Shown: positions 9,210-63,562 of the stretch, in pieces | Layout: each line of letters starts with the position of its first letter | Numbering within the stretch: the stretch's first letter is position 1 | NCBI RefSeq assembly: GCF_033568475.1 | Contig: NC_133123.1 | Span: 62,565,522-62,629,521 of the forward strand | DNA: 64,000 nt | Direction: 5' to 3' | DNA from: Henckelia pumila | Lineage: Eukaryota > Streptophyta > Magnoliopsida > Lamiales > Gesneriaceae | The notes under the pieces: model-generated | Databases searched by the model: none | The model's input: the letters and a program-made list of their open reading frames with translations, nothing else | Told to the model about the DNA's origin: nothing | Program-made: the position numbers and the translations under genes

Positions 9210-9210
9210 G

Positions 9211-17572: not shown

Positions 17573-17613
17573 CTTACCCAAATATTTGAATAGTCCATCG
17601 ATATAATCATTAC

Positions 17614-17735: not shown

Positions 17736-17749
17736 AAAAATAAATTTGT

Positions 17750-21038: not shown

Positions 21039-21079
21039 CTTACCCAAATATTTGAATAGTCCATCGATATAATCATTAC

Positions 21080-25995: not shown

Positions 25996-26098
25996 CGCCT
26001 AGGCGGGTATAAATTACCGCCTAGGCGGGAATAGCTGAATGAAAAGGTATGGGACAGAAATTTATCCGCCTAGGCGGTAAAATTTTACCGCCTAGGCG
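25996..26098 (+). repeat. Two 32-bp dyad modules, CGCCTAGGCGG word (Athila-2 LTR)
   Basis: Modules at 25996-26027 and 26067-26098, 71 bp apart. The second is a perfect 32-bp palindrome: left half CGCCTAGGCGGTAAAA, right half its exact reverse complement. The first differs by few bases. Each arm is itself nearly palindromic around CCTAGG. Confidence 0.95.
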
Positions 26099-26174: not shown

Positions 26175-26182
26175 TATAAAAG
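26175..26182 (+). promoter_or_regulatory. TATA box of the Athila-2 LTR
   Basis: TATAAAAG in GGCATATAAAAGGG context, 77 bp downstream of the second dyad module. Likely core promoter of the genomic RNA. Confidence 0.6.
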
Positions 26183-30200: not shown

Positions 30201-30713
30201 TAACGCACCGGCCACTTTTCAAAGGTGCATGAACGCAAGTTTCATGACATGATTGAGGATTTTCTAGAGATTTTCATGGATGATTTTTCTATATTTGGAT
30301 CTTCTTTTGATATATTTTTGGAGAATTTGCGTAGCTTTTGTTGCGATGTGAGGAAACTAACTTAGTGTTGAATTGGGAAAAGTGTCACTTTATGGTGCAG
30401 GAGGGGATTGTGCTTGGGCACAAGGTTTCTGAACAAGGCTTGGAAGTGGATAAAGCGAAAGTGGAAGTAATTAAGAACTTGCCACCGCCAACATCTGTGA
30501 AGGGAGTTAGAAGTTTCTTAGGCCATGCCGGATTCTACCGGCGATTTATTAAATATTTTTCAAAAATTGCTAAGCCTTTATCTTCCTTGTTAATGAAAGA
30601 TGCACCATTTGATTTTAAATTTGATTGTATGCAGGCATTTGAGGCACTGAAAGAGCGACTGATGACGGCTCCAGTTTTGGTAGCTCCTAATTGGAATATC
30701 CTTTTTGAGATAA
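27243..30713 (+). pseudogene. Athila-2 Gag-protease-RT, broken
   Basis: Gag reads as Athila-type (EIKPAIIQMIQNTVQFGG, AKEFLTKYFPPSKCMKLR). Zinc-knuckle-like CDKCGGEHFTQDC is near 28170. Protease CDLGVSINLM is near 29037. RT includes VCIDYRKLND and LDGYSD, and GFYRRFIKYFSKIAKPL near 30530. In-frame stops: TAA near 27654 and TAG near 28353. Frameshifts lie near 29215, 29630 and 29870, and the RT palm (30119-30337) is badly damaged. It stops at the N1 insertion in the codon before the RNase H motif MCDAS, which resumes at 59512. Confidence 0.88.
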
Positions 30714-32342: not shown

Positions 32343-33786
32343 ATGTCTCCCCGACCAGCACCGACTACTAGGCGTACTTTGGCAGTGAATCAGCCAGAAC
32401 AGACTAATGTTGCACAGGTATCAGTAACAGCACCTAAACTAGGACAGGGTAGTACGTCTGTTGATACGATGAGTGGTGATGCAAATCTTATGGAAAAACT
32501 GCTGAAACGATTCCAGTCCTTCAAACCACCGACGTTACAGGGAACTGATAACTCTGTTGATTGCGAGAATTGGCTGGAGGATATCGAGCAGTTATTTGAA
32601 TCCCTCGAATATACAGATGAACGTCGTGTGAGACTGATGATCCATCAATTACATGGCCTTGCAAAGAATTGGTGGGTAGGGACAAAGAGAGCATTTGAAA
32701 ACCAAGGTACAGTTATTACATGGGTTGTATTTAAAATTGCTTTCTATCAATGGTTCTTTCCTATTTCTTATCGAAAGGATAAGGGAGCGGAGTTTGAAAG
32801 TTTGCAACAAGGGCATATGAATATTGAAGAATATGTTGCAAAGTTTACAAGCATACTGAAGTTTGATCCACATATCGCTGGGAGTGATGAAGCTCAAGCC
32901 GATCAATTTATAAATGGCTTGAATCTAGATGTGTTCACTCTTGTAAATGCGAGAAGACCGAATAACTTTGCCGATGCTCTGAATCATGCAAAGGGAGCTG
33001 AAGCAGGGATACTGAGGCAACGAGGAACACAGTTTGTGCCATAGCCGATGAAACAACTACAAGAGCAGCCACAGATTCCACCACCACCTCGATTTGATGC
33101 TGAAGGTAGCGGTAGTGGCAAGAAGAATTTCTTCAAGGGAAAAAGCAAACAGTTTAAGCGATCAGATAGTAGCTCTTCGAGTTCAGGTGGACCTAGACAG
33201 TTCAGAGGTGGACAGAAATCCGGTACTTCTGATGTCTAATGTACTAAATGTGGAAGACTTCACACCAATGAGCAGTGTAGATGAGTGTTTGGCACCTGTC
33301 ACATTTTCCAACAACCGGGTCATTTTGCGAGAGTATGCCCACAGCGAGGGTTGGGAAGTACTCAGGGTGCAAGTGGATCTCGATCAGTGACCCATCCCGA
33401 GAGGCAAGCATCCTCAGTGCATTCATTCCAACCTCAGTCATCAACACAGAGCCGTGCTAGAGGAAGTCAAGCTGGGAGCCAGCAACAGAGGCAACAAGCT
33501 AGAGTGTTTGCATTGACTGAGGAGCAAACACAAGCTGCACCTGATGATGTGATTGCAGGTAACTGTTTCATTTATGGTTATCCTGCCTATGTCTTATTTG
33601 TTACTGGTGCATCACACACCTTTATTTCTGAGCAATTTGTTGCATTACATGAATTTCCTATTGAACCTTTAGCTATTGTAGTGTCTATTTCATCACCTTT
33701 GGGAAGTGGTATTATATCAGTGAAGTTGGTACAAAATTGTACATTGCAGTTTGAGGGTCATGAGATTGAGATTGAGATTGATTGTT
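32343..33786 (+). pseudogene. N1 Gag and protease start, broken
   Basis: Begins MSPRPAPTTRR; the retrotransposon gag domain spans about residues 50-200 (CENWLEDIEQLFE, YRKDKGAEFESLQQG). In-frame stops: TAG 33042, TAA 33237, TGA 33282. One zinc knuckle is CHIFQQPGHFARVC, with the second Cys changed to Phe compared with N2. The protease active site reads LFVTGASHTF where N2 has LFDTGASHTF, so the catalytic aspartate is lost. N2 is inserted at 33787; the frame resumes at 52199. Confidence 0.88.
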
Positions 33787-35615
33787 GTAAGGCCCGGGAT
33801 TAATTAGAGATTAATCCGAATTTATTTAGTTTTAATCCGAGTATATTTAATTTGGGAATATTTAGAGTTTTGATTTAAATTCTAATATTCTTAAATTATT
33901 TAGGATTGAAATTGAATTAAAATAAGGGCCGAGGACCAAATTGCAATTATTGAAGAGTTGAGGGACCAAATTGCAATTCTCTTATAACTTATCAGATTTT
34001 AAGTGTAAGAGTCAGCTTATGCAACGTGTAAGCATGGAATTTTGTTCAGAATTTTGAAGCTAAGAACAGAGAGCTCGATTTCTTTCATTTCTTTTTGAGT
34101 TTTTGATCTTCAAAACCATGTAACTTTTGAACCGGGTATCTGATTTCGATTCCGAAAAGTGTTCTGGAATCCTTACGACAAGGGCTTCGATTTGGTGTAA
34201 GATTTTATATCTTTTAGCATGGTTTGAATTTCGAAAATTGACAGATATCAAATATTGAGTTTTCAATCATGTTTTGCAATTTGTATTGCGTCTAGTTTCG
34301 ACACCGGATCAAAGTTGGATGATTGAAGGGATTGATTATGATTTTTAGCATGTATATCGATGATTATAGCTGTTGTTATGATTTTATGCTATTGAATTTG
34401 ATAAAATATATGCTGATATATGAGTTTGAGTTACAAGTTTCGAAGTCGGGATTACGTCGGTTACCGATTTGGAATCGCTACGTCGTTTAATCGAGTTTTG
34501 GAACTATTTTGATGGCCGAATTCTGAGTTGAAGTTGTTATTGAGATGTTATGAATGTTATAGTATTTTTCTTATTCAGTTTCAGTTGAGTTTGAACGATA
34601 AACGACACAGGACACCGACTTGAACGAACGAAGAAAGAGTTGAGGTTTGAAATGCGATTGATTGATGAATTCTTGATGGTTTTGACTCATTTCTGAAATG
34701 ATAGATTGATATGAAGTTTGATATATGTATTTTGATTATATCTCGCAGATTTGAAGAGTTCAGAACCTCGATAAATGAAGGTATAATGACGACATCGCGA
34801 AGTAGGGACTTTGAAACTCAAGAACGATTATCTTTGAGTTGGCCCGCAAAAATCACATATTTGTTTATGTTTTCATTTGATTGTGGTGTTGTCGATCCAT
34901 CTCAGGTAGTGGATCTTTAAATTTGAGTTGATATGATGTTATATCGAATTGATTCTAAGCCAAGGTCGCGGTTAACCTTATTTGCGAGTCGTTTACGAAT
35001 TCGTTAGATGGATATCCATGTCAAGATCATTTATGAATCTTGATGGCTTCGAAGTTATATGAATCAATTCGTAGTTAAAGCGTTTGAGTACTCTATTTGT
35101 TGAGTTGAGTTTTAAATAGAGTCGATATGATTTATTTAACGCTTTCAATATGTTGGTTATACTGAGAATTGTATCTCACCGGAGTTATCCGGCTGTTGTC
35201 TTGTTTTGTATGCGTGCATGACAACAGAGAGGGCAGGAGCTAATCATCGACGTCATTGACAGCTGGGAGTAGATGATTTTTTGATTGTTAGAAGCAAGGA
35301 ACCTTAGAACTTGTTGGTTTTGGAATACATGTATGAAATTTGAGATAGTTTGGGTCGGTTATCGTTCTTTAGCGACTTGGTTGATGTAATAAAATTCATG
35401 TATACTTGCTTGGGACACTGTTTATATGTATAAGCTTGTGTTCATATCAAAACATCAGGTTTGGAAGCTGTAAATTTTCGGGCAAGAAGCTGTCCAGGGC
35501 AACGCCCGAGCTGCAGAAAACAGCAGCCCGAGCGCGGCCCGGGGCAGAAAGTTGCTCTTCGATTTGAGCATGGCGCGCCCGAGCGGCGCTTTTCAGCCGC
35601 TCGAGCGCAGCCTAT
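33787..35615 (+). repeat. N2 5' LTR, main part (interrupted by Copia-2)
   Basis: 1829 bp here and a further 102 bp at 45169-45270. It lacks about 30 bp present in the 3' LTR near 51717. Copia-2 is inserted three bases after the last dyad module. Confidence 0.9.
35503..35607 (+). repeat. Two 32-bp dyad modules, CGCCCGAGC word (N2 5' LTR)
   Basis: Modules at 35503-35534 (CGCCCGAGCTG / CAGCCCGAGCG, two mismatched pairs) and 35576-35607 (CGCCCGAGCGG / CCGCTCGAGCG, one mismatch), 73 bp apart, each 11-10-11. The same pair is at 51980-52011 and 52053-52084 in the 3' LTR, also 73 bp apart. Confidence 0.85.
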
Positions 35616-37475
35616 TGTAAGAGTGGGTGCCCAGTGAGCCAACTGTGTGGCTATGGGCTTTGATGACTCTTTGTATAAACAATCTTTTGTTTAATATTAT
35701 TTACACTTTTATGGCAATGACTTTATATTACTTCATATTGTTATATTGTGATATACTATTGTTGTTTTGATAAAGACCTTGAATATACTATAGTGTATGT
35801 AAGATGTGGTAGAACATGGAGATGTCTATCATGAAATACATCTTATAGTCACTGTATGTTCTAAAACCGTTCCTAGTCGATTGAGCCGTCCGATAATAAG
35901 GATAAGGATCGCTCGAGTTTGAGACTAGCATTTGCGATGCGGAGTACCACGTTTCATTGGTAGGGAACATGGAGATGTTCGAAGCATGCAAATGGATATT
36001 CATAGGATGAATAATCGAACTACCCTATCCGGACTTTCCAAGTGGTTATCACTTATCGAGTGGATTAAGTCCGCGGTTTTGGTTGTACACCATTAGTCCT
36101 TACGACTTGAAACATCATGGAGACTCTATATGCTAGTGTTGTGCTTTGACTCGTTTACCGACTCTATGGGGGTCATCAGGTGTCGAGATTGGGTACAGTT
36201 ACGACACATATAGGAGTCAATGCATTGTTGTCAAGGATTCACCACATACTTGCGAGTGTGGATATCCTATGCGATCTGAGGAGATATTAGTGTGATAAAT
36301 CTCTGGCCAGAGTAATTGATGTGATTTAAGAAATGGTTTCTTAGTAGCACATGCGATGTCACTAATTTGATCTTCAAGATGTATTGCATAGTTATCGAAT
36401 CTTGAGCGGCTCTCGATATACCAATGGTTGTTGATTCGATCGGGATATATGGATGAAGGGACCGTACTGTACGCTAACCAAAATCTACTGGTTCTTGTAG
36501 GCACTATCAGTGATACCTAGGGAATCATGGGGCGATGTTCCTAGGCGCTTTACCATGATTCGTTGGGCAAGTCGGAAAGTGTTGTTCCGAGTCACAAGGA
36601 GTTGTGAGCCCACGGCTAGCTGTATCCCTGAACCATTGAGGGTCACACAGTGTAATGGAGTTTTAATCCCCGTTGAGATAGTTAAATTTAAAGAGTTAAA
36701 TTTAATGAACTAAGGAGTTGGACTTCTTAAATAAGAGTAAGGGAGTAGGATTTCCTAAAATGACATAGGGATGGACATTTTTGGAAACCACTGAATTCGG
36801 ATTCAGGAAAATTTATTTTGACTTTAAAATGTGCAGAAATGGTTTCTGTGCACATTGGTGAAATCAGTTCATCAATCGGAGTCACGATGAATTTTATATT
36901 AATTTCTGAACGAGCGGGCTTTGCTTGTCGGGCCCCAGCTTATGACTAATGGGCCCTAAGGTGTTAGTGGCCTGCATTATAAATAAGTTATTTCAGTACA
37001 GAAATTACACACAACAGGTCATAATTTTTGAGACAGAGAAAATTTTCGAACCCTAGCTCTCTCTCTCTGTTCGGCCGACCCCTCCCCCTCTGCCCGAGAT
37101 TTTCCGGTCTGTGATTTTGAATTGCAGTCTGGAATAGCGAATCAGATTCGTTTATTCTCTTCGCAGAAAACTTCTGATAGATTTTCTAGTGCAATCTATC
37201 AGAGGGATTAAACCTCTGTTCGTGGACCTGATTGAAGGAGTTCATCGGTTCCAGGGAGAGACAACAAGAGCAGATCAAATCTGTTGGTGTCCATTAATCT
37301 CGTTGCGAGATTGGAGGTAAAATTTAATAACTGTTATTTAAATTTTACACACACAATAATTTAATCGTTGAACGGTTGATACCCACACTATGGAATTGTT
37401 CCATAACAAAATTTTTAAACTTCCGCTGCACCGGGTATCAATCGTGATTGATCTGACCGCCAGTTTTTTCCAACA
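35616..37475 (+). repeat. Copia-2 5' LTR
   Basis: 1860 bp, TGTAAG...CCAACA. It differs from the Copia-1 LTR mainly in the U5 region (for example around 37020-37080 and 37250-37330). TATA box 36978-36985; splice-donor-like GAG/GTAAAA at 37316/37317. Confidence 0.93.
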
Positions 37476-37476
37476 G

Positions 37477-37488
37477 TGGTATCAGAGC
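37477..37488 (+). other. Primer-binding site, tRNA-Met (Copia-2)
   Basis: TGGTATCAGAGC, one base after the 5' LTR, as in Copia-1. Confidence 0.93.
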
Positions 37489-37598
37489 CAGGTTGCTCAG
37501 ATCAAACGATTAAATTAATCAATTGTACAAAATTTTTGAGTCTCGGTTTTTGAAACAAAATAAATATTTTTAAATAAAAAAATTTTTCGGGGCAAAAC

Positions 37599-37849
37599 CC
37601 GGGCAGCGATTGGATCGCTGCCCGGTGGGGCAGCAATTGTTGCTGCCCCGGGCGGCGCACGACGCCGCCCAAAGGGGGCGCACGGCGCCGCCCAAGGCGG
37701 CGACCGTCGCCGCCCAGGGCAGCGCTCGGCGCTGCCCAGGGGCGGCGCTCGGCGCCGCCCAGGGGCGGCGCCAGCGCTGCCCTAAGGGGGCAGCCGGGCT
37801 GCCCCGGCCCGCGCCCCGGGTGCGGGCCGGCCCGGGAGTGTCCCGGGCG
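37599..37849 (+). repeat. GC-rich hairpin array in the Copia-2 leader
   Basis: Same place and near-same length as in Copia-1, but with different middle units. The first two hairpins match (37599-37625, 37627-37649). Then come GGGCGGCG / CGCCGCCC (37650-37670), an imperfect unit (37674-37693), GGCGGCGA / TCGCCGCC (37696-37714), GGGCAGCGC / GCGCTGCCC (37717-37737), GGGCGGCGC / GCGCCGCCC (37740-37760), and GGGCGGCGC / GCGCTGCCC (37763-37782), where G faces T, a G-U pair in RNA. Flanking leader is nearly identical between the copies. Confidence 0.95.
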
Positions 37850-39376
37850 GCCCGCGGGAAAAATTATATTTTTATTTAAAAATTAATTTTAATATTTAAA
37901 ATTTTATTTTTGGTCCGGTCAAAAATTGTTTTTGATTGGTTCACGAGATTTCGGATCGAATTGTTCGAGTCCGTAAATTTTAAAATTGATTTTGGATAAA
38001 TTTGAATTTTTGGAAAATTTTAATATTTTATCCGTAAATTGAATTTTGAAATCAATTATTTTGGTACAATTGATGATAAGATATGATCTTATGATATATT
38101 AAGTAAAATATGATTTTATTTGTAAAATTGGATTTTATAGATAAAATATGATTTTATTTGATATAGAGATAAAATATGATTTTATATGTGAAATGAGATT
38201 TTATATATAAAATATGATTTTATCTTGTTTAAATTTGAATTGCCACTGCATGTTATCCAATAAATTAATTTTGAATTAAATGTTATTGGATAAGGATGAT
38301 CGATTGCCATGACCAATTTTGTAGGTGTATGTTAGGAATTTACATTTTGTTTTTATTGTTGTTAGTTTTATTAATGGGCCTGGTTTATGGCCCGATATGA
38401 ATGTCATATGTAATAAAAGTGGGCTTGGTTTATAGCCCGTTCCCACCCCTAAAAATGTATCCCTACTTGTCATTGTTATTTATTGTAAATACATTAGATT
38501 TAGTGGGAGATCAAGATTTGAAGACGGTGGGCCCAGCAGACAATAAAGACTGAAGAAATGTAAATTGGAAGCACATGTAATAGGATTGCATTGCATACTG
38601 CATATTACCTAGGATTGGACTAAGACCCGTGATTGGCAACCACGGGTCAATTAGAAATGGAATCGATCATCCTATATAATATTTGATATTATGATTGTAT
38701 GCATGTTTAGACATAAATTGCGTGAATCCGGCAAGCATGCAATAAAATGAATATGATGAGACAAATATTTTTATAATTAAAAATCCCTCATTTTAAATAT
38801 GATTTAAAATTTATATCAAGATAAATAAAGGAAATTTAAATTTGTTTAAATGTTCCCACCTTCCATCAACGGTCAATGTATGTGACGCTACCCGCGGATA
38901 CGGTCCGGCTCATATTATTGGGGGGGCCCGTCCGTCGGAAAGCTGTACATTGGATCGACAAATGTTGTAAGTTGGGTGGAACTCCCATGGGATCGGCTCA
39001 TATTATTGGGGGATCCACATGGCGACCGTCCATCACAACTTAATATTGATGGGTCATCTTGACATGTCACTTTAAACGGCGTCATATTATTGGGCCCTTA
39101 TTGGACATGAGGTAAAAACATGGGGGTTGCTTTGGAAGCAATTGGGCTCTACCTTTTGAGAATTATGGTTGGCTGATATTATTCGGGACCATAAGTTTGT
39201 CAATTGGACTCCATGTTCTCACTAAGGAAAAAGTTTCCCGTTTTCACTAGAGGGTGGTGAAATCGTTAAAATAGTGGGAGTGAGATTCATAAAATTAAAT
39301 TCGCCTATTTTATGTCTTAGTAAATTGTTAAACAATCATTGATATATGTCTGTTTTTCTTTTCAGTATTTCATACA
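37850..39376 (+). repeat. Copia-2 leader downstream of the hairpin array
   Basis: Near-identical to the Copia-1 leader: the AT near-palindromes, the paired GGGCC / GGGCT hairpins, the four TCATATTATTGGG-type repeats and the acceptor-like TTTTCTTTTCAG ending at 39365 are all kept. No credible ORF. Confidence 0.8.
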
Positions 39377-42300
39377 ATGAATTCGCGAAATCCATTATTC
39401 TCGATCCTCGAACAAAACAAGTTGACTGGCGCCAACTATACGGAATGGTTCCGGAAGTTGAAGATTGTCTTAACTTCGGAGAAAATGCTCTACGTGTTAG
39501 AGAAAGCACCTCCGAAGGAAGCACCAGCTGACATAAGTCCGGAGGAATTGGCCAAACTTGATGCATGGTGTGACCATGACATCAAGACCAAATGCTATAT
39601 GCAAGCCTCGATGTCTGATGAACTCCAGAGGCGATTTGAGGACACGGTGAATGCTGCTGACATTCACACGCAACTCAAGGAACTTTTTGGGGCTCAGTCG
39701 AGGGCTGAAAGGTTCGCTACTGTTAAGGAGTTGATGACGTGCCGCATGCGTGAAGGGACTTCGGTCCGTGATCATGGGGTACGAGTGATTTGGCTCATAC
39801 AGAAGTTGGCGACCCTAGATTTGGTGTTGGAGCATGAACTCAATGTGGATTTATTGCTTCTGTCTCTTCCTTCTTCATTTGATGGATTTGTGATAAATTT
39901 TAATATGAACAAGATAGAGGCCACCCTTGAAGAGATGGTCAATATGCTCGTTACATATGAATCCACACTTAAGAAGGATAAGCCAGCTTTCTTGGTGGGC
40001 TCCTCATCTTCTGCTAAGAAGGGGCCAAGTATGAAGGGCAAGAAACGTTCTACCCCACCCAAGAAAGTCGAGCCCGAGAAGAAGCAAAAGACAAAGGCTT
40101 CAAACAATGGAAAATCCAAGGATGTTTGCCATTACTGCAAGAAGCCGGGTCATTGGAAGCGCAACTGCAAGGAATATCTTGAGCAGTTGGGAACTGCAAA
40201 GGGTATGTTCTATATTGAAATAAACATGTCACTTAATACAACTTCTTGGGTATTGGATACCGGATGTGGATCTCACATTTGCAATGATTTGCAGGTGATG
40301 ACAAGAAGTCGCAGGCTTAGAATGGGTGAGACCCAGCTGAGGCTCGGGAATGGTTCCAGAGTTGAAGCTACGGCCATTGGAGATGTTTGTTTGACTTTGC
40401 AGAACGGTTTTAAATTATTGTTAAGAGATGTTTTATTTGTGCCAGATTTAATTAAAAACATTATTTCTATTTCTATGCTTGATAGAGATGGTTATTCTTG
40501 CAATTTTGTGAATGGGATTTGCAATATTTACAAGAATGAATGTTTAATTGGAAATGGACAACTTGAAAACGATCTATACAACTTAAAACTAAAAGACGTT
40601 CCAGTGAATTATGTTGATAAACCGGCGACAACAAACAAAAGGAAAATCGATAGTCAAAACCCGGCAAACCTTTGGCACGCTAGGCTAGGTCATATTTCCT
40701 CAAGGAGGATGAACAAGCTAGTGGGAGAGGGCATGTTTGATATGTCTGATATTAACTCTCTACCTACTTGTGAATCCTGCCTAAGAGGAAAAATGACTAA
40801 ATCTCCTTTTAAGGGAAAACCTGAGCGTAGTCAGAATCTGTTGGATTTGATCCATACAGATGTTTGTGGTCCATTTAGAGTAGGGACTCAACATGGCCAC
40901 ACCTACTTCATTACCTTTACTGATGATTATTCAAGGTATGGGTATTTATATTTAATGAAATATAAGTCTGAAGCATTTGAAAAGTTCAAAGAATTCAGGG
41001 CTGAAGTAGAAAACAAGCTAGGTAAAAGTATTAAAGCACTTCGATCGGATCGAGGTGGAGAATACTTGAGTACCGAGTTTTTGGACTATCTGAAAGAGAA
41101 TGGGATTCTCTCTCAGTGGACTCCTCCTATGACACCACAGCTTAATGGTGTATCGGAGCGTCGTAATCGAACTTTGTTGGACATGGTTCGATCTATGATG
41201 AGCTTCACTGAGCTTCCACCTTCGTTTTGGGGCTATGCGCTTGAAACGGCGGTATTGTTGTTAAACAACGTCCACACTAAAGCAGTGGACAAAACACCAT
41301 ACGAGTTATGGAATGGCAAAGCTCCTAAGTATTCGTACTTGAGGATTTGGGGATGTCCTGCTTACGTGAAGCGGACAGTGGGAGATAAGTTGGATAGTCG
41401 ATCCAGCTTATGTTATTTTGTAGGGTATCCGAAGAATTCAATCGGATATTATTTCTATTATCCTGCTGAAACAAAGGTGTTTGTTTCTAGGAATGCCACC
41501 TTCTTGGAGAAGGAGTTCTTATTGGATAAGAAAGGCGAGATGATGGAACTCGAAGAAGTTCGAGAAGAACCCGAAATACAAAATAACGATCCTACACCTC
41601 AGGAACCATTGCTGGACACGCCTGCACCTAGAAGATCCGAAAGGACTTCTAGACCTCCAGTTCGATATGGTCTTCTTCTTGAAGAGGATCAAGATGAACC
41701 CGACATTGGATGTGATCCAAGAAACTTCAAGGAACAATTTCTGATGCGGATTCGAATTTATGGCTTGAAGCTATGCAGTCAGAATTGGATTCGATGCATA
41801 CAAACCAAGTTTGGTCTTTAGTAGATCCTCCCGATGGAATTGTTCCAATAGGGTGTAAATGGATCTACAAGAGAAAGCTTGGGCCTGATGGTAAGGTATT
41901 GACCTACAAGGCGCGATTGGTGGCGAAAGGTTATACTCAAAGGCAAGGAGTTGACTATGATGAAACCTTTTCACCAGTTGCAATGTTCAAGTCCATAAGA
42001 ATCCTGATTGCCATAGCTGCATGGTATGACTATGAGATATGGCAAATGGATGTGAAGACTGCTTTTCTTAATGGAGACATTAAGGAAGAAATCTATATGA
42101 AGCAGCCTGAGGGGTTCACATCCATGGGAAGCGAGCATAAGGTATGCAAGCTTCAGAGATCAATTTATGGTCTAAAACAAGCATCAAGAAGTTGGAACCA
42201 GAAATTTGATGAAACAATAAAAGATTTTGGTTTCATCAAGAACCCGGAGGAACCGTGCGTGTACAAGAAAGTAGTTAAGGATGCTGTGACATTCTTAGTA

Positions 42301-43290
42301 CTTTATGTTGATGACATCCTACTCATTGGGAATGATGTAGGGATGTTGCAGTCAACAAAGATATGGTTATCAGGTAGATTTTCGATGAAGGATTTGGGAG
42401 AGGCATCCTACATTCTTGGGATACAGATCTATAGAGATAGGTCTAAGAGAATGATAGGACTCACTCAATCAACCTACATCGATACCATATTGAAACGGTT
42501 TTCAATGGATGGGTCCAAAAGAGGACATCTACCCATGTGTCATGGAGTTTCTCTATCCAAGTCTATGTGTCCCAAGACTGATGAAGAGATAGAGAATATG
42601 ACACATGTACCATATGCGTCAGCTATAGGTAGTATCATGTATGGGATGATATCTACCAGACCGGATGTAGCATTTGCTCTGAGTGTCACGAGCAGATATC
42701 AGTCTAATCCTGGTCAAATGCATTGGAAAGCCGTGAAGGACATTCTTAAGTACTTGCGAAGGACTAAGAATATGTTCATGGTTTATGGAGGACGAGAACT
42801 CAAATTGGAAGGCTATACCGACTCTAGCTTCCAAAGTGATGTGGATGACTCGAAGTCAACCTCTGGATTTGTGTTCATGCTCAATGGCAGTGCTGTCTCT
42901 TGGAAGAGTTCCAAGCAGGACACCACAGCGGATTCCACCACTGAGGCTGAATACATTGCAGCATCAGCTGCTGCTAAAGAGGCCGTTTGGATGAGGAAGT
43001 TCGTCCAAGAGTTGGGCGTCATTCCTGAATTTGTTGGTCCAGTCCCGGTGTACTGTGACAACACGGGTGCCGTTGCTCAAGCAAAGGAACCAAGGTCTCA
43101 TCAAAGATCCAAACACGTACTGAGGAAATACCACATAATCCGGGAGATTGTGGAAAGAGGAGACATCATTGTCGAACGAGTGGCCTCTGCAGACAATATC
43201 GCTGATCCGCTTACTAAGCCCTTGCCAGGACCATTGTTTGACAAACATCGCGAAGCAATGGGTCTACGTAGTATGACTAGTTGGCTATAG
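39377..43290 (+). pseudogene. Gag-Pol polyprotein of Copia-2, one-base frameshift
   Basis: Aligned with Copia-1 it is nearly identical, but one base is missing near 41733 (GGAAGCAATT in Copia-1, GGAACAATT here). The first frame ends at 41821, after gag, protease and integrase. The second (41773-43290) holds RT with YVDD and RNase H. All catalytic motifs remain, so this single deletion is the only obvious lesion. Without RT in frame it is probably non-autonomous, although its RNA keeps the cis-acting signals and could be mobilised by Copia-1-like proteins. Confidence 0.93.
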
Positions 43291-43304
43291 GGCAAGTGGG
43301 AGAT

Positions 43305-45163
43305 TGTAAGAGTGGGTGCCCAGTGAGCCAACTGTGTGGCTATGGGCTTTGATGACTCTTTGTATAAACAATCTTTTGTTTAATATTATTTACACTTTTA
43401 TGGCAATGACTTTATATTACTTCATATTGTTATATTGTGATATACTATTGTTGTTTTGATAAAGACCTTGAATATACTATAGTGTATGTAAGATGTGGTA
43501 GAACATGGAGATGTCTATCATGAAATACATCTTATAGTCACTGTATGTTCTAAAACCGTTCCTAGTCGATTGAGCCGTCCGATAATAAGGATAAGGATCG
43601 CTCGAGTTTGAGACTAGCATTTGCGATGCGGAGTACCACGTTTCATTGGTAGGGAACATGGAGATGTTCGAAGCATGCAAATGGATATTCATAGGATGAA
43701 TAATCGAACTACCCTATCCGGACTTTCCAAGTGGTTATCACTTATCGAGTGGATTAAGTCCGCGGTTTTGGTTGTACACCATTAGTCCTTACGACTTGAA
43801 ACATCATGGAGACTCTATATGCTAGTGCTGTGCTTTGACTCGTTTACCGACTCTATGGGGGTCATCAGGTGTCGAGATTGGGTACAGTTACGACACATAT
43901 AGGAGTCAATGCATTGTTGTCAAGGATTCACCACATACTTGCGAGTGTGGATATCCTATGCGATCTGAGGAGATATTAGTGTGATAAATCTCTGGCCAGA
44001 GTAATTGATGTGATTTAAGAAATGGTTTCTTAGTAGCACATGCGATGTCACTAATTTGATCTTCAAGATGTATTGCATAGTTATCGAATCTTGAGCGACT
44101 CTCGATATACCAATGGTTGTTGATTCGATCGGGATATATGGATGAAGGGACCGTACTGTACGCTAACCAAAATCTACTGGTTCTTGTAGGCACTATCAGT
44201 GATACCTAGGGAATCATGGGGCGATGTTCCTAGGCGCTTTACCATGATTCGTTGGGCAAGTCGGAAAGTGTTGTTCCGAGTCACAAGGAGTTGTGAGCCC
44301 ACGGCTAGCTGTATCCCTGAACCATTGAGGGTCACACAGTGTAATGGAGTTTTAATCCCCGTTGAGATAGTTAAATTTAAAGAGTTAAATTTAATGAACT
44401 AAGGAGTTGGACTTCTTAAATAAGAGTAAGGGAGTAGGATTTCCTAAAATGACATAGGGATGGACATTTTTGGAAACCACTGAATTCGGATTCAGGAAAA
44501 TTTATTTTGACTTTAAAATGTGCAGAAATGGTTTCTGTGCACATTGGTGAAATCAGTTCATCAATCGGAGTCACGATGAATTTTATATTAATTTCTGAAC
44601 GAGCGGGCTTTGCTTGTCGGGCCCCAGCTTATGACTAATGGGCCCTAAGGTGTTAGTGGCCTGCATTATAAATAAGTTATTTCAGTACAGAAATTACACA
44701 CAACAGGTCATAATTTTTGAGACAGAGAAAATTTTCGAACCCTAGCTCTCTCTCTCTGTTCGGCCGACCCCTCCCCCTCTGCCCGAGATTTTCCGGTCTG
44801 TGATTTTGAATTGCAGTCTGGAATAGCGAATCAGATTCGTTTATTCTCTTCGCAGAAAACTTCTGATAGATTTTCTAGTGCAATCTATCAGAGGGATTAA
44901 ACCTCTGTTCGTGGACCTGATTGAAGGAGTTCATCGGTTCCAGGGAGAGACAACAAGAGCAGATCAAATCTGTTGGTGTCCATTAATCTCGTTGCGAGAT
45001 TGGAGGTAAAATTTAATAACTGTTATTTAAATTTTACACACACAATAATTTAATCGTTGAACGGTTGATACCCACACTATGGAATTGTTCCATAACAAAA
45101 TTTTTAAACTTCCGCTGCACCGGGTATCAATCGTGATTGATCAGAGAGCCGCGTTTTACAACA
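43305..45163 (+). repeat. Copia-2 3' LTR
   Basis: 1859 bp. Matches the 5' LTR closely except for its last ~22 bp (after GATTGATC), where several changes cluster, although the CAACA end is kept. Followed by target duplication CCTAT. Confidence 0.92.
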
Positions 45164-48500: not shown

Positions 48501-50123
48501 GATTTGGATTGTGAAATCAAATACTATCCGGGAAAATCTAACGCAGCAGCAGATGCCCTAAGTAGAAAAGTATGTGCTCTATCTTTATCTACTATAGGTG
48601 TATCTAGTTTGATTGAGAATTGTTGTGTTTCTGGGTATGTATTTGAGAAAGATAGAAGGCCGATGAGAGTGTATGCAATTAGTGCTGAGCCAGAGTTATT
48701 GATTCGTATCAAAGAAGCACAGAAAGCTGATCAGAGTATACAGAAATCGAATGAAATGATCAAATCAGGACATCAGTCTGAGTACAAGGTTAGTGATGGC
48801 GATATCTTGTATGTGAATAACCGAATAGTTGTTCCTAATATTACAGATTTGAGACAGAATATTTTGAAAGAAGCCCATTGTAGTCGCTTTAGTGTTCACC
48901 CTGGAGGCAGGAAGATGTACAATGACTTGAAGAGTCTGTACTGGTGGAAACAAATGAAGTCTGATGTGACTGAATTTGTGTCCAAATGTTTGAATTGCCA
49001 ACAGGTGAAAGATAAAAGAAAGAAACCGGGTAGCTTATTACAGAGTTTATCAATTCCTGAATGGAAATGGGATCACATTTCCATGGACTTTGTAACGAAG
49101 TTACCGCGATCATCTCGAGGATGCGATGCTGTTTGGGTGATCATCGACAGGTTGACGAAATCTGTGTGCTTTATTCCTTATCGAATGACTTATCGTCATG
49201 ATCAAATGGCGGATCTCTATATTCGAGAAGTGGTAAGACTACACGGTGTGCCAAAGTCGATTGTATCTGACCGAGATCCGAGGTTTACTTCGCACTTTTG
49301 GCATAGCCTACAGGAAGCTCTAGGTACGCGTTTACATTTGAGTACTGCTTACCATCCTCAAACCGACGGTCAATCTGAACGAACAATTCAGACGCTTGAG
49401 GATATGCTTAGAGCTGTAGTACTTGATTTTGGTGTTACATGGCAAAATTCTATACCACTCGTGGAATTTTCTTATAACAACAGTTATCAGACGAGTATAG
49501 AGATGGAACCATTCGAAGCGTTATATGGGAAGAAGTGTCGATCGCCTTTGTATTGGGATGATGTTTCTGAGGTACCTGAGTTAGGGCCAGATATGATCAG
49601 ACAGATGACTGAAAAGGTAAAACTGATACAGCAGAGAATAAGAACAGCATAGCACAGACAGACCAGATATGCGAATGTACGATGAAGGCCGTTATCATTT
49701 GATCAGGGAGATAGAGTGTTTCTGAAGATTTCACCGTTCAGAGGCACCGTTCGATTTGGAAAACGAGGGAAGTTATCTCCGAGGTATATTGGGCCGTATG
49801 AGATTCTCGAGAATATAGGCAATCTAGCTTATCGACTCGCTCTTCCTATATCTTTATCTGGAATACATGATGTCTTTCATGTATCGATGTTGAGGAAGTA
49901 CATATCTGATGCATCTCATGTGATTCACTCCGATGAAGCTGAATTGGATGACACTCTTAGTTATTTCGAGCAACCAATTCAGGTTCTTGATAGAAAGACG
50001 AAGCAACTCCGAACGAAGACCATTCCATTGGTGAAGATTCAATGGAGTAGACACGAAGTTGAAGAAGCAACCTGGGAAGTCGAAGAAGATATGAAGCAAC
50101 GATTTCCTTACTTATTTCATTGA
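45546..50123 (+). pseudogene. N2 Gag-Pol polyprotein with chromodomain, broken
   Basis: Order: gag (45546 to about 46430), two zinc knuckles (CTKCGGRHTDEQC, CHICNKMGHFARVC), protease (LFDTGASHTF), RT ([22 protein letters not shown]), RNase H ([19 protein letters not shown]), integrase (HPGG...CLNCQQ zinc site, MDFVTKLP, VSDRDPRFTS) and a C-terminal chromodomain-like segment (VKIQWSRHEVEEATWEVEED). Stops at 45738 (TAA), 47307 (TAA), 47862 (TGA), 48477 (TGA) and 49650 (TAG). A 7-bp tandem duplication near 47895 and a one-base loss near 48315 shift the frame and back. Otherwise well preserved. Confidence 0.92.
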
Positions 50124-50234: not shown

Positions 50235-52193
50235 TGTAAGGCCCGGGATTAATTAGAGATTAATCCGAATTTATTTAGTTTTAATCCGAGTATATTTAAT
50301 TTGGGAATATTTAGAGTTTTGATTTAAATTCTAATATTCTTAAATTATTTAGGATTGAAATGGAATTAAAATAAGGGCCGAGGACCAAATTGCAATTATT
50401 GAAGAGTTGAGGGACCAAATTGCAATTCTCTTATAACTTATCAGATTTTAAGTGTAAGAGTCAGCTTATGCAACGTGTAAGCATGGAATTTTGTTTAGAA
50501 TTTTGAAGCTAAGAACAGAGAGCTCGATTTCTTTCATTTCTTTTTGAGTTTTTGATCTTCAAAACCATGTAACTTTTGAACCGGGTATCTGATTTCGATT
50601 CCGAAAAGTGTTCTGGAATCCTTACGACAAGGGCTTCGATTTGGTGTAAGATTTTATATCTTTTAGCATGGTTTGAATTTCTAAAATTGACAGATATCAG
50701 ATATTGAGTTTTCAATCATGTTTTGCAATTTGTATTGCGTCTAGTTTCGACACCGGATCAAAGTTGGATGATTGAAGGGATTGATTATGATTTGTAGCAT
50801 GTATATCGATGATTATAGTTGTTGTTATGATTTTATGCTATTGAATTTGATAAAATATATGCTGATATATGAGTTTGAGTTACAAGTTTCGAAGTCGGGA
50901 TTACGTCGGTTACCGATTTGGAATCGCTACGTCGTTTAATCGAGTTTTGGAACTGTTTTGATAGCCGAATTATGAGTTGAAGTTGTTATTGAAATGTTAT
51001 GAATGTTATAGTATTTTTCTTATTCAGTTTCAGTTGAGTTTGAACGATAAACGACACAGGACGCCGACTTGAACGAACGAAGAAAGAGTTGAGGTTTGAA
51101 ATGCGATTGATTGATGAATTCTTGATGGTTTTGACTCGTTTCTGAAATGATAGATTGATATGAAGTTTGATATATGTATTTTGATTATATCTCGCAGATT
51201 TGAAGAGTTCAAAACCTCGATAAACGAAGGTATAATGACGACATCGCGAAGTAGGGACTTTGAAACTCAAGAACGATTATCTTTGAGTTGGCCCGCAAAA
51301 ATCACATATTTGTTTATGTTTTGATTTGATTGTGGTGTTGTTGATCCATCTCAGGTAGTGGATCTTTAAATTTGAGTTGATATGATGTTATATCGAATTG
51401 ATTCTAAGCCAAGGTCGCGGTTAACCTTATTTGCGAGTCGTTTACGAATTCGTTAGATGGATATCCATGTCAAGATCATTTATGAATCTTGATGGCTTCG
51501 AAGTTATATGAATCAATTCGTAGTTAAAGCGTTTGAGTACTCTATTTGTTGAGTTGAGTTTTAAATAGAGTCGATATGATTTATTTAACGCTTTCAATAT
51601 GTTGGTTATACTGAGAATTGTATCTCACCGGAGTTATCCGGCTGTTGTCTTATTTTGTATGTGTGCATGACAACAGAGAGGGCAGGAGCTGATCATCGAC
51701 GTCATTGAAAGCTGGGAGAGAGTCTAGCACGTGAGGACTCGGGTTGTAGATGATGTTTTGAATGTTAGAAGCAAGGAACCTTAGAACTTGTTGGTTTTGG
51801 AATACATGTATGAAATTTGAGATAGTTTGGGTCGGTTATCGTTCTTTAGCGACTTGGTTGATGTAATAAAATGCATGTATACTTGCTTGGGAAACTATTT
51901 ATATGTATAAGCTTGTGTTCATATCAAAACATCAGGTTTGGAAGCTGTAAATTTTCGGGCAAGAAGCTGTCCAGGGCAGCGCCCGAGCTGCAGAAAACAG
52001 CAGCCCGAGCGCGGCCCGGGGCAGAAAGTTGCTCTTCGATTTGAGCATGGCGCGCCCGAGTGGCGCTTTTCAGCCGCTCGAGCGCAGCTTATTTGAAAAA
52101 AAAAAAAATTGTTTGTTACAGCTTCGGATGCTTGGTGATTGCTTATTCATTAATTTCCCTTAAGATTTGAGAATAGCAACCCGAGGCCCCACA
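50235..52193 (+). repeat. N2 3' LTR
   Basis: 1959 bp, TGTAAGGCCC...GGCCCCACA. Carries the two CGCCCGAGC dyad modules at 51980-52011 and 52053-52084, an A-rich tract near 52097, and ends in the CAACCCGAGG.CCCACA motif shared by the N1 LTR and, more loosely, N3. Confidence 0.92.
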
Positions 52194-52198
52194 ATTGT

Positions 52199-55306: not shown

Positions 55307-57369
55307 TGTAACGCCCCAAATTTATCTTAATTGACTTTTTTGAGATAATCGGAGATTACAGAGTTCAAGAGCCGACTTGATTTTGATCAGGGTCCTTTTT
55401 GCAATTTTTGGAAATTTTAGGGACTAAAATGCAAAATTGGAGATTGTTAGATATTTAAGCAATATTTCACCCATTCCTTCACTCCACACTCCTCCTCATT
55501 CACGTATCCCTCCATTGAAGGCGCTCCAAGTGATTTTCAAGCTTCCATATTTCATCCCGAGCTCGATCCGTCCGTTAGAATTTATTTCTGAAGGCAAATT
55601 AGTGATCACGGCTGCGAGAGCTTTGTTCTATTGTAGGTTTTTCTACGATCAGATACATTCTATTTTTCGGATGTTGTTAGAATCGATTGAGTTTCGTGTA
55701 TGTTGTTCTTGGCGGAGTTCTGATCGTTTATTCTCTGTCGGTTTTGAAATAGAGCATCGTTCGGAATTCTTATGATTTTCGGAAGCCTATTTTCGAAAAT
55801 GAGGTTTTGAGATGTGTTGGAATTGCTTTGTTGTTGTTGTCTTAGCATTGTTATGAGATGTTATCGTTATTGTACTGCTGTCTGCGTTTTCTGTTTGATC
55901 AGAATCTAACCGTTATGCCGTCGGTTTGAGTTTTGGGCTATAGTTTGGTTTGAATTGATTTGAGCCGTTTTCAGTTGTGTTTGAATGTCGATAGTGATCT
56001 CGGGCCTTTATTACTTCTTTTGCAGATTTGTTTGAAGGCCGTTGAGTTGCGAGGTTGCAGGAGTTGTATCATTTTAGAGATTGTAGCCGGTATAGTATCG
56101 ATTCTCTTATTATCGACTAGGAAGTTGATTGAATCTTGAATGAGTATTTTATTGTTGTTGTTTCCAGGTTGGAGCATCGAAGTTTGAAAGAGGTATAAGA
56201 TGACTTAGACTGGAATGGAACGAGTGACTCGAATCTGACTTGATTCGAGTGTTCCGAAGAAATCACATACTTGCATGTTAATTGAATTACTTGAATTTAT
56301 TGAATGAATTATGATTTGCATTGCATTCATCTTGAGCCAAAATCCTTGATTTCAGCGGGCAGGACGGCCCTTTTATGTTAGATGTTTTGGGGGCTTTTAA
56401 GCGAGTGGCCTAGGCGTAGAGGTTCGCCTAGTGCTAGCATACTCTTTATAGTCGCACCAAAGTCTAGAGGATGGAGATACGTAGCACTACCTCGATCGGG
56501 AGAGTCGGTGAGTTGTTTACGTGATCTCGTCCTCGGGATCCCAAAAGCAAAAGCAGCAACTCTTTTGATTATCCAGACTTGATAATCCCGGATTTTAAGA
56601 CATGCATTTCATTTTGATTTCTCTTGGAATTGCATGGTTGATATTTGAATTTCTGGAAGTTGATGTATTTTGTTTTGAGATGCTTATTTGATATTGCATG
56701 TTAGTCTCTTTTACTGGGAATATTATTCTCATCGGATTATTCGGTTGTTGTCTTGTATTTGTATGTGTGCTTGGCAACAGGTGGAGCAGGACCGAGTCAG
56801 AGATCGCATGGATAGTTGGGATGTGAAGATAGAGTGAGGACTTGGTGTTTTAGAAGTCGAATATGTAATCGAACTTAGATTGTATTCGAACTCGTATTGT
56901 ATTGTATTGCATTGAATAAGCTAGACTGAAGCATGTTCTAATAGTTTGAGATTGTATAACCCTAGAACAATCTTGTTTTGGACTATGCATGATGTTTGGA
57001 TGATTTATGCATGTCGAATGGATTTAGTTTTGGAGATTTGGAGTTGAAAATAGTCGAGCATATCTGTTTTATTTTTTGCAGATCTATGCCCGCTCGATCG
57101 GTTGAATCTTACCGATCGAGCGAGCACCCCTGAGCTGAGGCAAAAGTTTGGGATTTTTGTGTTCGCTCGATCGGTAAGTTTTGACCGATCAAGCGGAGGG
57201 CTTTTGTTAAGTCTCGGCAGAGACTTGGAATTTATGGCCCGCTCGATCGGTAATGTTTTACTAATCGAGCGAGCACTATTAAAAAAAATTTATTGCTTTT
57301 AGTCTTTGTTCTTGTATGCTTAATTGTTGTTTTATCCTAAATTTAGATGATTAGAATCGAGGTCTCACA
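55307..57369 (+). repeat. N3: solo LTR of a related chromovirus, inside N1
   Basis: Starts TGTAACGCCCC, ends GAGGTCTCACA, 2063 bp. Candidate target duplication TCTTG (55302-55306) versus TCATG (57370-57374), one mismatch. It splits the N1 sequence between the pol stop and the polypurine tract, which resumes as GAATTCGAGGACGAACTC as in N2. Carries a triple dyad array near its 3' end. Confidence 0.82.
57091..57271 (+). repeat. Triple 32-bp dyad array, CGCTCGATCGG word (N3)
   Basis: Modules at 57091-57122 (perfect), 57164-57195 (CCGATCAAGCG, one mismatch) and 57240-57271 (CTAATCGAGCG, two mismatches), periods 73 and 76 bp. All keep the 11-10-11 plan; spacer text differs between units. The inter-module sequence includes GTTTGGGATTTTTGTG, like the Athila-1 spacers. 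Confidence 0.95.
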
Positions 57370-57421: not shown

Positions 57422-59507
57422 TGTAAGGCCCGAGATTATTTAATTTAATTCGAATTTATTTAATTTTAATCCGAGAATATTTAATTTGAGAATTTTTAGA
57501 GTTTTGATTTAAATTCTAATATTCTTAAATTATTTAGGATTGAAATTGAATTAAAAAGAGGGTCGAGGACTGAATTGCAATTTATAAAGTTTTAGGGGCT
57601 AAATTGCAATTTTATCCAAAGTTATCCAATTTTATTATTGCTTTATCAGCTTGTGCACGTGTATAATCCATATTTCATTCAGAATTTTGAGAGCAGAAGC
57701 CGAGACCTTCAATTTCATTTGATATTTCTATTTGCAAATCGCCGTAACTTTTTATCCGATCGTCCGATTTCAATTTCGAAAATAGTTTTGGAATATTTGC
57801 AACAAGGGCTTCAATCTAGTGTAAGTTTTTATTTATTTCTGCATGGTTTGAATATTGAAATGTTGCAGAGATCAGATTTTATGCTCTATGTATGTTCTTG
57901 AGGTTTATATGCGCGATATATTCGAAACCGGATTGAAGAGTTTATCTTATTTGTACTGAATCATGAATTCTAGCTTATGTTCGATGTTTATAGCTGATGT
58001 TAGATGTGATATTGAGTTGATCTTGCTGCTACATGTTGATTTTAAGTATATGAGATTGATATTGATTTCGATATTTTGTCGGTTACCTATTTTCAGTCGC
58101 TACGCTATCGATTCATGTTTTGAGACCGTTTTGATAGCCGATGATTGAGCTGAGTCGTTCTTAGAGATGTTGTTGACGTTTTAGTATTTTTATTCTTCAA
58201 TTTCAGACTAGTTTGAAGGCTAACGACTCAAGAACTTGAATTCAAACCGAAGAAGAAGAAGTTGAGGTTGAAGTGATTTTGATTGAAGATCTATTGATGA
58301 TTTTGAATTGATTTTGAAATAATAGATTTGAACGAAGTTTGATATGAATGTTTTGATGTTATGTTTCAGATTTGAAGCGTTCAAAACCGAGAAAACCAGA
58401 AGGTATAAGACGACATCGCGAGTCAGGGATTTGAAACTCGAGAATGAAGCTTCTTGAGTTGTCCCGCCAAAATCACATACTTGTTTATAGATTTGATTTG
58501 ATTTTGATGTTGTCGATCCATCTCAGGTAGTGGATCTTTGAGTCGAAATGATTACGATGATGATATGATATGATATTGAATTGATTATATGTCGAGGTCG
58601 GAGGCGACCTTATTTTATAGTCCATAATGACTACGATAGATGGATATCCATGTCAAGATCGTTTACGAATCTTGATGGCAAAGACGTTATATGAATCAAT
58701 TCGTGATCGATACATGCGTTATTTACTCTACTGTCGAGTCGATTATGATTAGAGTTTATATGATTTATTTAACGCTTTATATATGTCTATTATACTGGGA
58801 ATGATTTCTCACCGGAGTTTATCCGGTTGTTGCTTTGTTTTGTATGTGTGCATGACAACAGAGGGGGCAGGAGCTAGTCAGAGACGTCATTGACAGCTCG
58901 GGAAAGCGTTTAGCACGTGAGGACTCAGGTTTTAGCTGAAGTTAGAAGTTTTAGAAGCATCAAACATGTTAGAATATTGTGGTTTGAAGTACACTTTTGA
59001 GAATCGTTATAGTTTTGTCGTTTATCGCTTTTTGAACGACTAGTTTGATGTAATAATCACATGGCTTGATGCTAGGAACTTACTACACGTATGTATGCAT
59101 GTTTCCAGATTTTATAACATTTTTATGATCCATGTTTTATGATGAATCATGCCTTGTTCCATGTTTTGACAGCAAAATGGTTCTACAGATTTTTTTGGAC
59201 ATGGAGCCCGCTCGATCGGGTGAACTCCTCCGATCGAGCGAGGCCCGTGAATTTGCAAAATAGAGAAATGGAACTTTGGGCTCGCTCGATCGGGTGAGTT
59301 CCACCGATTGAGCGCGGCCAAAAATATTTCAGACCCGAGAGTTTGAACTCCTAGCTCGCTCGATCGGCTGAATTTGCCCGTTCGAGCGAGGTGCTGTGTT
59401 TTAAAAAAAAATTAGCTCTTGGTTTGATATTATTTTAAATACTTGGTTAATTTTTTTATTAATCATTAATTGCCCTAAGATGAGATTATCAACCCGAGGT
59501 CTCCACA
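57422..59507 (+). repeat. N1 3' LTR (full length)
   Basis: 2086 bp, TGTAAGGCCCGAG...GGTCTCCACA, followed by target duplication GATAA. It retains the ~746 bp lost from the 5' LTR (58430-59175), and carries three dyad modules at 59209-59388. Confidence 0.92.
59209..59388 (+). repeat. Triple 32-bp dyad array, CGCTCGATCGG word (N1 3' LTR)
   Basis: Modules at 59209-59240 (perfect), 59283-59314 (CCGATTGAGCG) and 59357-59388 (CCGTTCGAGCG), period exactly 74 bp twice. The same array is at 31750-31929 in the 5' LTR with different scattered mismatches. Confidence 0.95.
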
Positions 59508-59512
59508 GATAA

Positions 59513-62050: not shown

Positions 62051-62228
62051 CGCCTAGGCGGTGAGAAATTACCGCCTAGGCGAGAAATTCCCTGGTTTAA
62101 CAAACTTTTTTAGTGTAAGTTTCCGCCTAGGCGATAATTTTTTACCGCCTAGGAGAGAAATTCTCTGCTTTCACTTATTTTTGTGCGCATACATCCCGCC
62201 TAGGCGGAAAGTTTCTACCGCCTAAGCG
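62051..62228 (+). repeat. Triple 32-bp dyad array, CGCCTAGGCGG word, upstream of the env-position ORF
   Basis: Modules at 62051-62082 (perfect 12-bp stem, 8-nt centre), 62124-62155 and 62197-62228, period exactly 73 bp twice. Same word and geometry as the modules in the Athila-2 LTR (25996-26098), but in the internal region between integrase and the next ORF. Confidence 0.95.
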
Positions 62229-62456: not shown

Positions 62457-63562
62457 ATGGGTCCAAAGTGCATCAGGGTGACTGGGTCATCTTCATCAAG
62501 TTCTTTTATTTTATCAGGTAAATTCGTCTCTAAAGAATAAAAGCAGCAATTTGAACATTCAAAATTAAACCGCACTTGTTGGCCCGAGCGTGGATTTCAT
62601 ATTAATAAAAGGCAAATTTTTATTGTTGTGAGGATGATTGAGGAACGGGGTTGGAAAAAATTTTGTGCCCAACCGAAGGCAAGTATTGTTCCTTTAGTAA
62701 GAGAGTTTTATGCGAATGCTAGAAAGGGTAATTAGAGGAAAGTAATTGTTCGAGGAAAATGGGTGCTTTATGGTGAAAATGTGATAAACGAGTTGTTAGT
62801 TTTAGCCGAGGTGGATACTATGGCATATGATGCATTGTCTGCGGATCCGGATTGCCATATTATTTATGAATGAATTGTGTCATGTTGGGGAGGTATGGAG
62901 CCATCCTGTGAAATTTTTGCTATTTCAGACGAAATATCTCAAAGTCGTACCCGCTTTGTGGTATGCATTCTTGATTTGTCGATTGATGCCGGTCTCCCAT
63001 GTTAGCGAGGTTAAAAAGGCTAGGGTCGTTCTTCTATTTGCGATCATGATGGGTATTCCGATCAATGTTGGACGTATCATTTCATCTCATATATTGCAGT
63101 GTTCCCATAGCCCGCATACTAAGCTATTTTTCCCGACCATTATTACTGAATTGTGTGTGTTGGTTGGGGTGTCAACAGGGGTGAACGATGAATGGATCCA
63201 ACCTCAACAGGCCATTGATGAAAAGATTTTAGCAGGAAATAAAGATACCCGAGCCCAGCTTCCCGCTGGAGGGAGTTCGAGTGCAGCTCCACCGCTTCAA
63301 CCGAAACGTCGATCTATGACTGCTAAGGTCGATGAATTATATTCTTGGGCCGAACAAAAAAACCAGAATGGTGAATGCCCAATACATGAAATCGGTGGAT
63401 TCTTTGATGAGAGGCATTGCTGATCACTTGGGCATGGATTCTTTTTTATATCCGAGGCCACCACCGTACCCGTCGGCATTTCAGTTCACATACTTGATGG
63501 GACCACCACAAGCTGATGATGAAGGAGTTGTACCACCGGAGCATGAAGAGGAGGAGGATTGA
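62457..63562 (+). pseudogene. Athila-2 env-position ORF, broken
   Basis: Starts MGPKCIRVTGSSSSSSS, the counterpart of 33-1154. A stop after GKFVSKE near 62541 and further frameshifts follow. The longest clean piece is 62827-63423 (WYAFLICRLMP, GIPINVGRIISSH, NDEWIQPQ). A frameshift near 63360 leads to the last piece ending at 63562 in an acidic EHEEEED tail. Belongs to the putative plant transposon protein (Transposase_32-like) family; function unknown, no membrane anchor evident. Confidence 0.75.

Follow-up and report, generated by a model that had tools for sequence, protein, structure and literature searches.

Arrays of paired palindromic modules with a fixed geometry in Ty3/gypsy LTRs of Henckelia pumila

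Nested retrotransposons and their module arrays

The window analyzed here, a stretch of 64,000 nucleotides from the 884.7 Mb genome of Henckelia pumila (Gesneriaceae), consists of nested LTR retrotransposons, with Ty3/gypsy gag, protease, RT/RNaseH and integrase genes and two copia copies of about 9.5 kb. The elements considered below are N1, N2, N3, Athila-1 and Athila-2, where the label Athila follows the naming of an earlier note on this DNA; a site near 27114 is presumably an Athila-like primer site. The LTRs and TSDs of N1 and N2 were read off the sequence and from self-comparison.

57422 to 59507, plus strand: N1 3' LTR, with TSD GATAA at 30709-30713 and 59508-59512
50235 to 52193, plus strand: N2 3' LTR, with TSD ATTGT at 33781-33785 and 52194-52198
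49686 to 50120, plus strand: N2 integrase C-terminus, matching SH3_Tf2-1 and, just under the curated cut-off, Chromo
55307 to 57369 (approximate), plus strand: N3, probably a solo LTR from a chromovirus-like family, situated in N1 before the N1 3' LTR
62806 to 63420, plus strand: ORF with PF20167 (Transposase_32), 3' of the Athila-2 internal array

The two integrase matches, including the one below the cut-off, identify N2 as a chromovirus. N3 is probably a solo LTR inside N1, as judged from its sequence, which corrects the earlier account; its termini are TGTAACG...GAGGTCTCACA (...CACA), and an imperfect TSD (TCTTG/TCATG) was read from the sequence. An intron missing from the shorter 5' LTR of N1 was considered and rejected, as the deletion ends are not GT-AG.

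Other repeats in the window deserve mention in their own right. The copia copy at 35613-45142 (9.5 kb) is 97.7% identical to the one at 7344-16887, and sits in the N2 5' LTR about 6 bp past an N2 module, the N2 A-tract resuming near 45172. Both copias carry GC-rich palindromes and 22-23-bp repeats just past the 5' LTR (9338-9585 and 37598-37844), a further case of clustered palindromes, here in another class of element. A direct repeat pair of 584 bp (17167-17750 and 20633-21216, 98.1% identical) probably represents the LTRs of a short element.

The Ty3/gypsy elements carry the following modules and arrays.

57091 to 57122, plus strand: N3 module 1, CGCTCGATCGG, 10-bp spacer and inverted arm, 0 arm mismatches
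57164 to 57195, plus strand: N3 module 2, 1 mismatch
57240 to 57271, plus strand: N3 module 3, 2 mismatches
59209 to 59388, plus strand: N1 3' LTR array, modules at 59209, 59283 and 59357
31750 to 31929, plus strand: N1 5' LTR array, modules at 31750, 31824 and 31898
35503 to 35607, plus strand: N2 5' LTR array, modules at 35503 and 35576, arms CGCCCGAGCKG
51980 to 52084, plus strand: N2 3' LTR array, modules at 51980 and 52053
2539 to 2717, plus strand: Athila-1 LTR array, modules at 2539, 2613 and 2686, polypurine tract about 210 bp before
25996 to 26098, plus strand: Athila-2 LTR array, modules at 25996 and 26067, arms CGCCTAGGCGG, both perfect
62051 to 62228, plus strand: Athila-2 internal array, modules at 62051, 62124 and 62197, between a stop codon near 61879 and the next ORF

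The plan described in the earlier note, an 11-bp arm, a 10-bp spacer and an inverted 11-bp arm, was confirmed for all 21 listed modules, whose arms have no mismatch in 6 cases, one in 8 and two in 7. The two Athila-2 arrays, LTR and internal, have the same arms. A period of about 73.5 bp, as given in that note, is a fair description of the window, yet spacings of 71 and 76 bp also occur: start to start, the modules are 73 and 76 bp apart in N3, 74 and 74 in each N1 LTR, 73 in each N2 LTR, 74 and 73 in Athila-1, 73 and 73 in the Athila-2 internal array and 71 in the Athila-2 LTR.

Chance was assessed with a filter for the 11-10-11 plan (at most 2 mismatches, GC-rich arms) and 100 dinucleotide shuffles of the window. 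At spacer 10 the window yields 25 sites, against a mean of 1.0 and a maximum of 4 in the shuffles, and 14 pairs 71-76 bp apart (in one of which the same module is read in a shifted register), against none. Even spacers near 10 score as well (24 sites at 8, 22 at 12), because every module contains shifted versions of itself. The module at 26067 is a perfect 32-bp palindrome, with the spacer TAAAATTTTA. Pairing of the spacer halves was rejected, since it was not above shuffling in 37 distinct spacers.

The arrays of the chromoviruses are found close to the LTR 3' end (those of N1, N2 and N3 stop 98-119 bp short of it) and those of Athila closer to the LTR start. The following sequences were found 3' of arrays.

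57281 to 57288, plus strand: A-tract of N3, 9 bp 3' of the array
59403 to 59411, plus strand: A-tract of N1, 14 bp 3' of the array
52096 to 52108, plus strand: A-tract of N2, 11 bp 3' of the array
26175 to 26182, plus strand: TATA box TATAAAAG, 76 bp 3' of the Athila-2 LTR array

The A-tracts of N1, N2 and N3 measure 8-13, and reverse-oriented arrays elsewhere in the genome (L001, L002, L004 and L008) have a T-run of 8-15 at 12-16 bp from the first arm; the Athila stretches examined contain no A-tract of 8 or more. By the pattern used, no TATA box lies downstream of the N1, N2, N3, Athila-1 and Athila-2 internal arrays, and in N1 TATATATG is found 431 bp upstream of the array. The arrays of N1, N2, N3 and Athila-1 may therefore lie in a transcribed leader. 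Between the Athila-2 internal array and the PF20167 ORF there is a pyrimidine-rich stretch that resembles a plant promoter or leader.

When the N1 and N2 LTRs were aligned, the array blocks had identities of 0.38, 0.02, 0.42 and 0.50 (the 0.02 block is mostly gap, N2 having one module fewer), and 27 of the 32 upstream blocks exceeded 0.50; N1 and N2 retain the module geometry despite this low array-block identity. CpG o/e in the arrays is 1.06-1.45 at a GC content of 0.47-0.66, and o/e in the rest of the LTR is the same in N1 and higher in N2. By eye, many listed linkers (for example 52012-52052 and 57196-57239) share a recurring box, GGGCAGAGAG, GGGCAGAAAGTT or CCCGAGAG, possibly a second site.

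Spacing and orientation across the genome

The pattern CGCTCGATCGG-N10-CCGATCGAGCG occurs at 11,321 places genome-wide and the reversed-pattern control at none. If any spacer of 0-30 bp is allowed between these arms, 11,428 places are found, with a spacer of exactly 10 in 11,321 (99.1%) and other lengths in only 107, and the whole genome holds just 25 pairs of these arms in direct orientation at a distance of up to 30 bp. The spacer sequences varied (37 distinct among 51 listed places). Successive modules (ACCGATCGAGCG, 25-55 bp, CGCTCGATCGGT) were found at 3,956 places, and among 50 listed pairs the period was 69-76 bp, 73 or 74 in 40 of them, with a mean of 73.2 and an SD of 1.1. Linkers and spacers diverge widely among the listed places, and the arms are near-identical; these places are the first ones on contig 1 and, because they include copies of the same families, they are not independent. 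The arrays are real, strongly non-random and genome-wide. That they are something other than random repeats, as the earlier note held, is borne out by a spacing kept at thousands of places and an orientation that is almost only inverted.

A match to the motif in a viral collection was rejected: the single one (L022) is an isolated perfect module in a 68% GC stretch and was judged unrelated.

Several arm sequences share the geometry. Arms that start with CGC but not CGCT have it at 824 places, versus 94 for the reversed control, and are chiefly CGCCCGnGCGG (43 of 60 arms, from 30 distinct modules among 50 listed). With 0-30 bp allowed, CGCCCGnGCGG arms are found at 365 places (control 1), and the spacer is 10 in all 50 listed. 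CGCCTAGGCGG arms, found at 66 places, hold the spacer less strictly, as it is 10 in 27 of 50 listed, 7-9 in 16 and 17-30 in 7. 

In a survey of 12 evenly placed 10-kb stretches, CGCTCGATCGG modules occurred in one (L008) and the palindrome CGGAACTTCCG in three (L005, L011 and L015). Across the genome, one strand holds 13,335 pairs of CGGAnCTTCCG copies within 30 bp of each other and the opposite strand 13,456, against 0 and 1 for the controls; among 100 listed pairs the centres are 19 bp apart in 35, 20 in 26, 21 in 31, 22 in 1 and 38-41 in 7. The arrays of this palindrome consist of many neighbouring copies about 20 bp apart, and copies within 300 bp at no more than 2 mismatches were counted.

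L005, 3187 to 3409: CGGAnCTTCCG palindrome array, 8 copies
L011, 3745 to 4008: CGGAnCTTCCG palindrome array, 10 copies
L015, 1727 to 1997: CGGAnCTTCCG palindrome array, 9 copies

Ty3 genes, gag or RVT_1, lie on the same three stretches. The CGGAnCTTCCG pairs, and likewise the other types of arm, could represent separate solutions. Further matches to the 11-10-11 filter in the sampled stretches were left unclassed (e.g., L016:5664 and 5811, L010:7344, L014:5565 and L011:7150); at L016:5664-5842, a GC-rich repeat of another make contains two inverted 11-10-11 pairs of GGTGGGTTGGG, 147 bp from each other.

Part of the regularity may be a matter of descent. Linkers are similar within the arrays of Athila-1 (z 5.8), Athila-2 internal (z 5.6), N1 (z 4.2) and, weakly, N3 (z 1.9), and between arrays those of Athila-1 resemble N3 (best z 4.6) and N1 (z 3.8), where each between-array z is the best of several pairs, uncorrected. 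The lineages are therefore not fully independent witnesses, and the common 73-bp period probably derives in part from shared descent or array exchange and not from convergence. Athila and chromoviruses are old, separate lineages, and given the likeness of their linkers the array may have passed between them by exchange or by capture. These similarities are also what a neutral minisatellite would leave, that is, a 73-bp unit that multiplied in an ancestral LTR and was then inherited or exchanged, its length preserved because indels are rare. We regard such an origin as distinctly improbable, because the arms have remained near-identical although the listed spacers and linkers diverge widely, because neither the inverted symmetry nor the almost invariably exact spacer fits it, and because other arm sequences share the geometry and another palindrome is paired at 19-21 bp. 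The linkers of N2 and the Athila-2 LTR, moreover, show little likeness to most others.

The earlier note had further proposed that all sites lie on one face of the helix. The distances are consistent with this (21 bp corresponds to 2.0 turns and the period of 73.2 bp, over 50 listed pairs, to 7.0 turns), but with a single length mode seen, selection for helical phase is indistinguishable from plain retention of length. The equation of 73.5 with 147/2 is simply a numerical match to half a nucleosome. A device in which a half-nucleosome period and an A-tract fix a nucleosome on the LTR promoter or beside it would suit the mean period, the A-tracts 9-14 bp 3' of the N1, N2 and N3 arrays and the T-runs of the reverse-oriented ones. 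It would leave the exact 10-bp spacer unexplained, however, each array has just 2-3 modules, and the Athila stretches have no A-tract of comparable length; we consider this reading very improbable.

DNA sites, RNA stems and a proposed role

Inverted arms could act as paired DNA sites or as RNA stems. Taken singly, the arms come close to a palindrome over 10 bp, with 0-2 mismatched pairs in 13 arm variants (one for CGCTCGATCGG, none for CGCCTAGGCGG). In the CGCCCGnGCGG-type set, arm-to-arm pairing was perfect in 8 of 30 distinct modules, versus 5.9 with arms shuffled (P = 0.20), in a test for which only five inner positions were free in the search pattern. There is thus no arm-to-arm covariation above shuffling in this one family, which on small samples speaks for DNA sites rather than an RNA stem. 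On balance, every arm seems to be read independently of its partner, as a protein site would be.

If transcribed, the arrays would fold strongly. Six stretches of LTR or leader were folded in windows of 110 nt, and 97 of the 310 windows that overlap an array fell under -40 kcal/mol, against none of the 1,407 outside; the minima of the array folds ranged from -49 to -70 kcal/mol, and Athila-1 contributed just 1 of its 58 windows. Such folds, and the small RNAs that Sirevirus palindrome clusters are described as attracting in excerpts of PMC10760457, would accord with arms that pair in element RNA, for packaging or translation control, or as dsRNA that feeds small-RNA silencing, a case already argued for the Sirevirus palindromes of maize. 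The types of arm mismatch do not decide the matter, because the two sets lean opposite ways: the 30 modules, of arbitrary orientation, have 10 G.T + T.G against 5 A.C + C.A, and the window, a small and partly duplicated sample, has 11 A.C against 4 G.T, the reverse of what an RNA stem predicts. A hairpin, moreover, does not require a loop of unconstrained sequence that is exactly 10 bases long, the TATA box of the Athila-2 LTR comes after the array, and arm matching in the 30 modules stayed at the shuffled level. We therefore hold an RNA role to be unlikely, if somewhat less so than the two alternatives above.

Paired palindromic DNA sites are the reading that we prefer, with modest confidence: the modules would form a cis-regulatory array in Ty3/gypsy LTRs that serves transcription control of the LTR. 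Each 32-bp module would comprise two CG-rich, nearly palindromic protein sites of 10-11 bp in mirror orientation, 21 bp or two helical turns apart, and the cis-regulatory unit would consist of two or three such modules at a distance of about 73 bp. A dimeric DNA-binding protein, more likely of the host than encoded by the element, would occupy each arm, and two dimers would bind cooperatively on the same face of the helix. The earlier suggestion of an array for a DNA-binding dimer agrees with the different arm sequences on one inverted geometry, which such a dimer would predict. Bound in this way, the array would govern transcription of the LTR, in Athila-2 from a place shortly before the TATA box, and the Athila-2 internal array would exert the same control upstream of the extra ORF after pol. 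As a candidate promoter or enhancer unit, the arrays offer a handle for finding a host protein on which LTR promoters may depend.

More tentatively, it is possible that separate Ty3 lineages of this one plant share a spacing code, in which CG-rich palindromes stand two helical turns apart and the geometry is retained as the recognition sequence turns over by family. If true, such a code would be the mark left on LTR promoters in general by a family of host DNA-binding proteins, or by an arms race with that family, and the Sirevirus motifs discussed below would be another instance. Because thousands of natural variants differ in sequence but have the geometry in common, it becomes possible to tell apart what spacing, sequence and silencing each contribute.

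Comparison with known systems

Among the titles listed by motif-letter and topic searches of one open-access library, none dealt with arrays of paired palindromes in the LTRs of Ty3 elements. Tnt1 and similar plant retrotransposons (Ty1/copia) have short repeated cis elements in U3, near the LTR promoter, and we know of no paired-palindrome geometry in such boxes. For box I of Tnt1, symmetry is mentioned in excerpts of PMC2829016. Palindromes at insertion sites (Jedlicka et al., 2019; PMC6911290, in excerpt) are a separate matter. As regards folding, excerpts of PMC10760457 mention a palindrome cluster in a maize copia LTR (2016, Genome Res) that likewise has strong predicted secondary structure, and report hairpin peaks in maize copia LTRs, Ty3/RLG elements generally being without an obvious peak (Martin et al., 2023); the Ty3 stretches folded here, in contrast, peak at the array.

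The closest known system is the repeated motif (RM) of Sireviruses, and by analogy the Henckelia arrays may work like it. According to excerpts of Bousios et al. (2010; PMC2829016), the RM consists of short, mostly CG-rich palindromes with dyad symmetry in Ty1/copia elements and is called Sirevirus-specific; 8-32 palindromes with a CGG-CCG core occur per element, in clusters that form CpG islands. One cluster precedes the TATA box within the LTR and further copies precede the env gene, and the sequence varies by element while the plan is retained. Section 9 of that paper describes no fixed pair spacing.

The Henckelia modules are likewise palindromes with dyad symmetry, their inverted orientation being confirmed. 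The core is present in the CGGAnCTTCCG arrays, and the main modules have CGG-N10-CCG across the spacer, with arms that lack the core by themselves. As to position, the Athila-2 LTR array is 76 bp upstream of TATAAAAG, other window arrays having no downstream TATA box by the pattern used, and the Athila-2 internal array precedes an ORF known by its Transposase_32 match. Unlike the RM, however, the Henckelia arrays are carried by Ty3/gypsy and not Ty1/copia elements, as judged by Gag, RT/RNaseH, SH3_Tf2-1 and Chromo matches, each array of the window comprises 2-3 modules (4-6 arms) instead of 8 or more copies, and their arms are paired with a 10-bp spacer and a 73-bp period. Because of the wrong superfamily, the fewer copies (in the main form) and the rigid paired geometry, they are not members of the Sirevirus RM. 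That the CGGAACTTCCG arrays are Sireviruses was not borne out either, the genes on those stretches being Ty3, if array and genes are assumed to belong to one element.

Sirevirus palindromes have been reported for one copia genus and linked to both promoter control and host silencing. The chromovirus and Athila-type arrays offer a stricter, countable version of such palindromes, on which the question can be put to the test.
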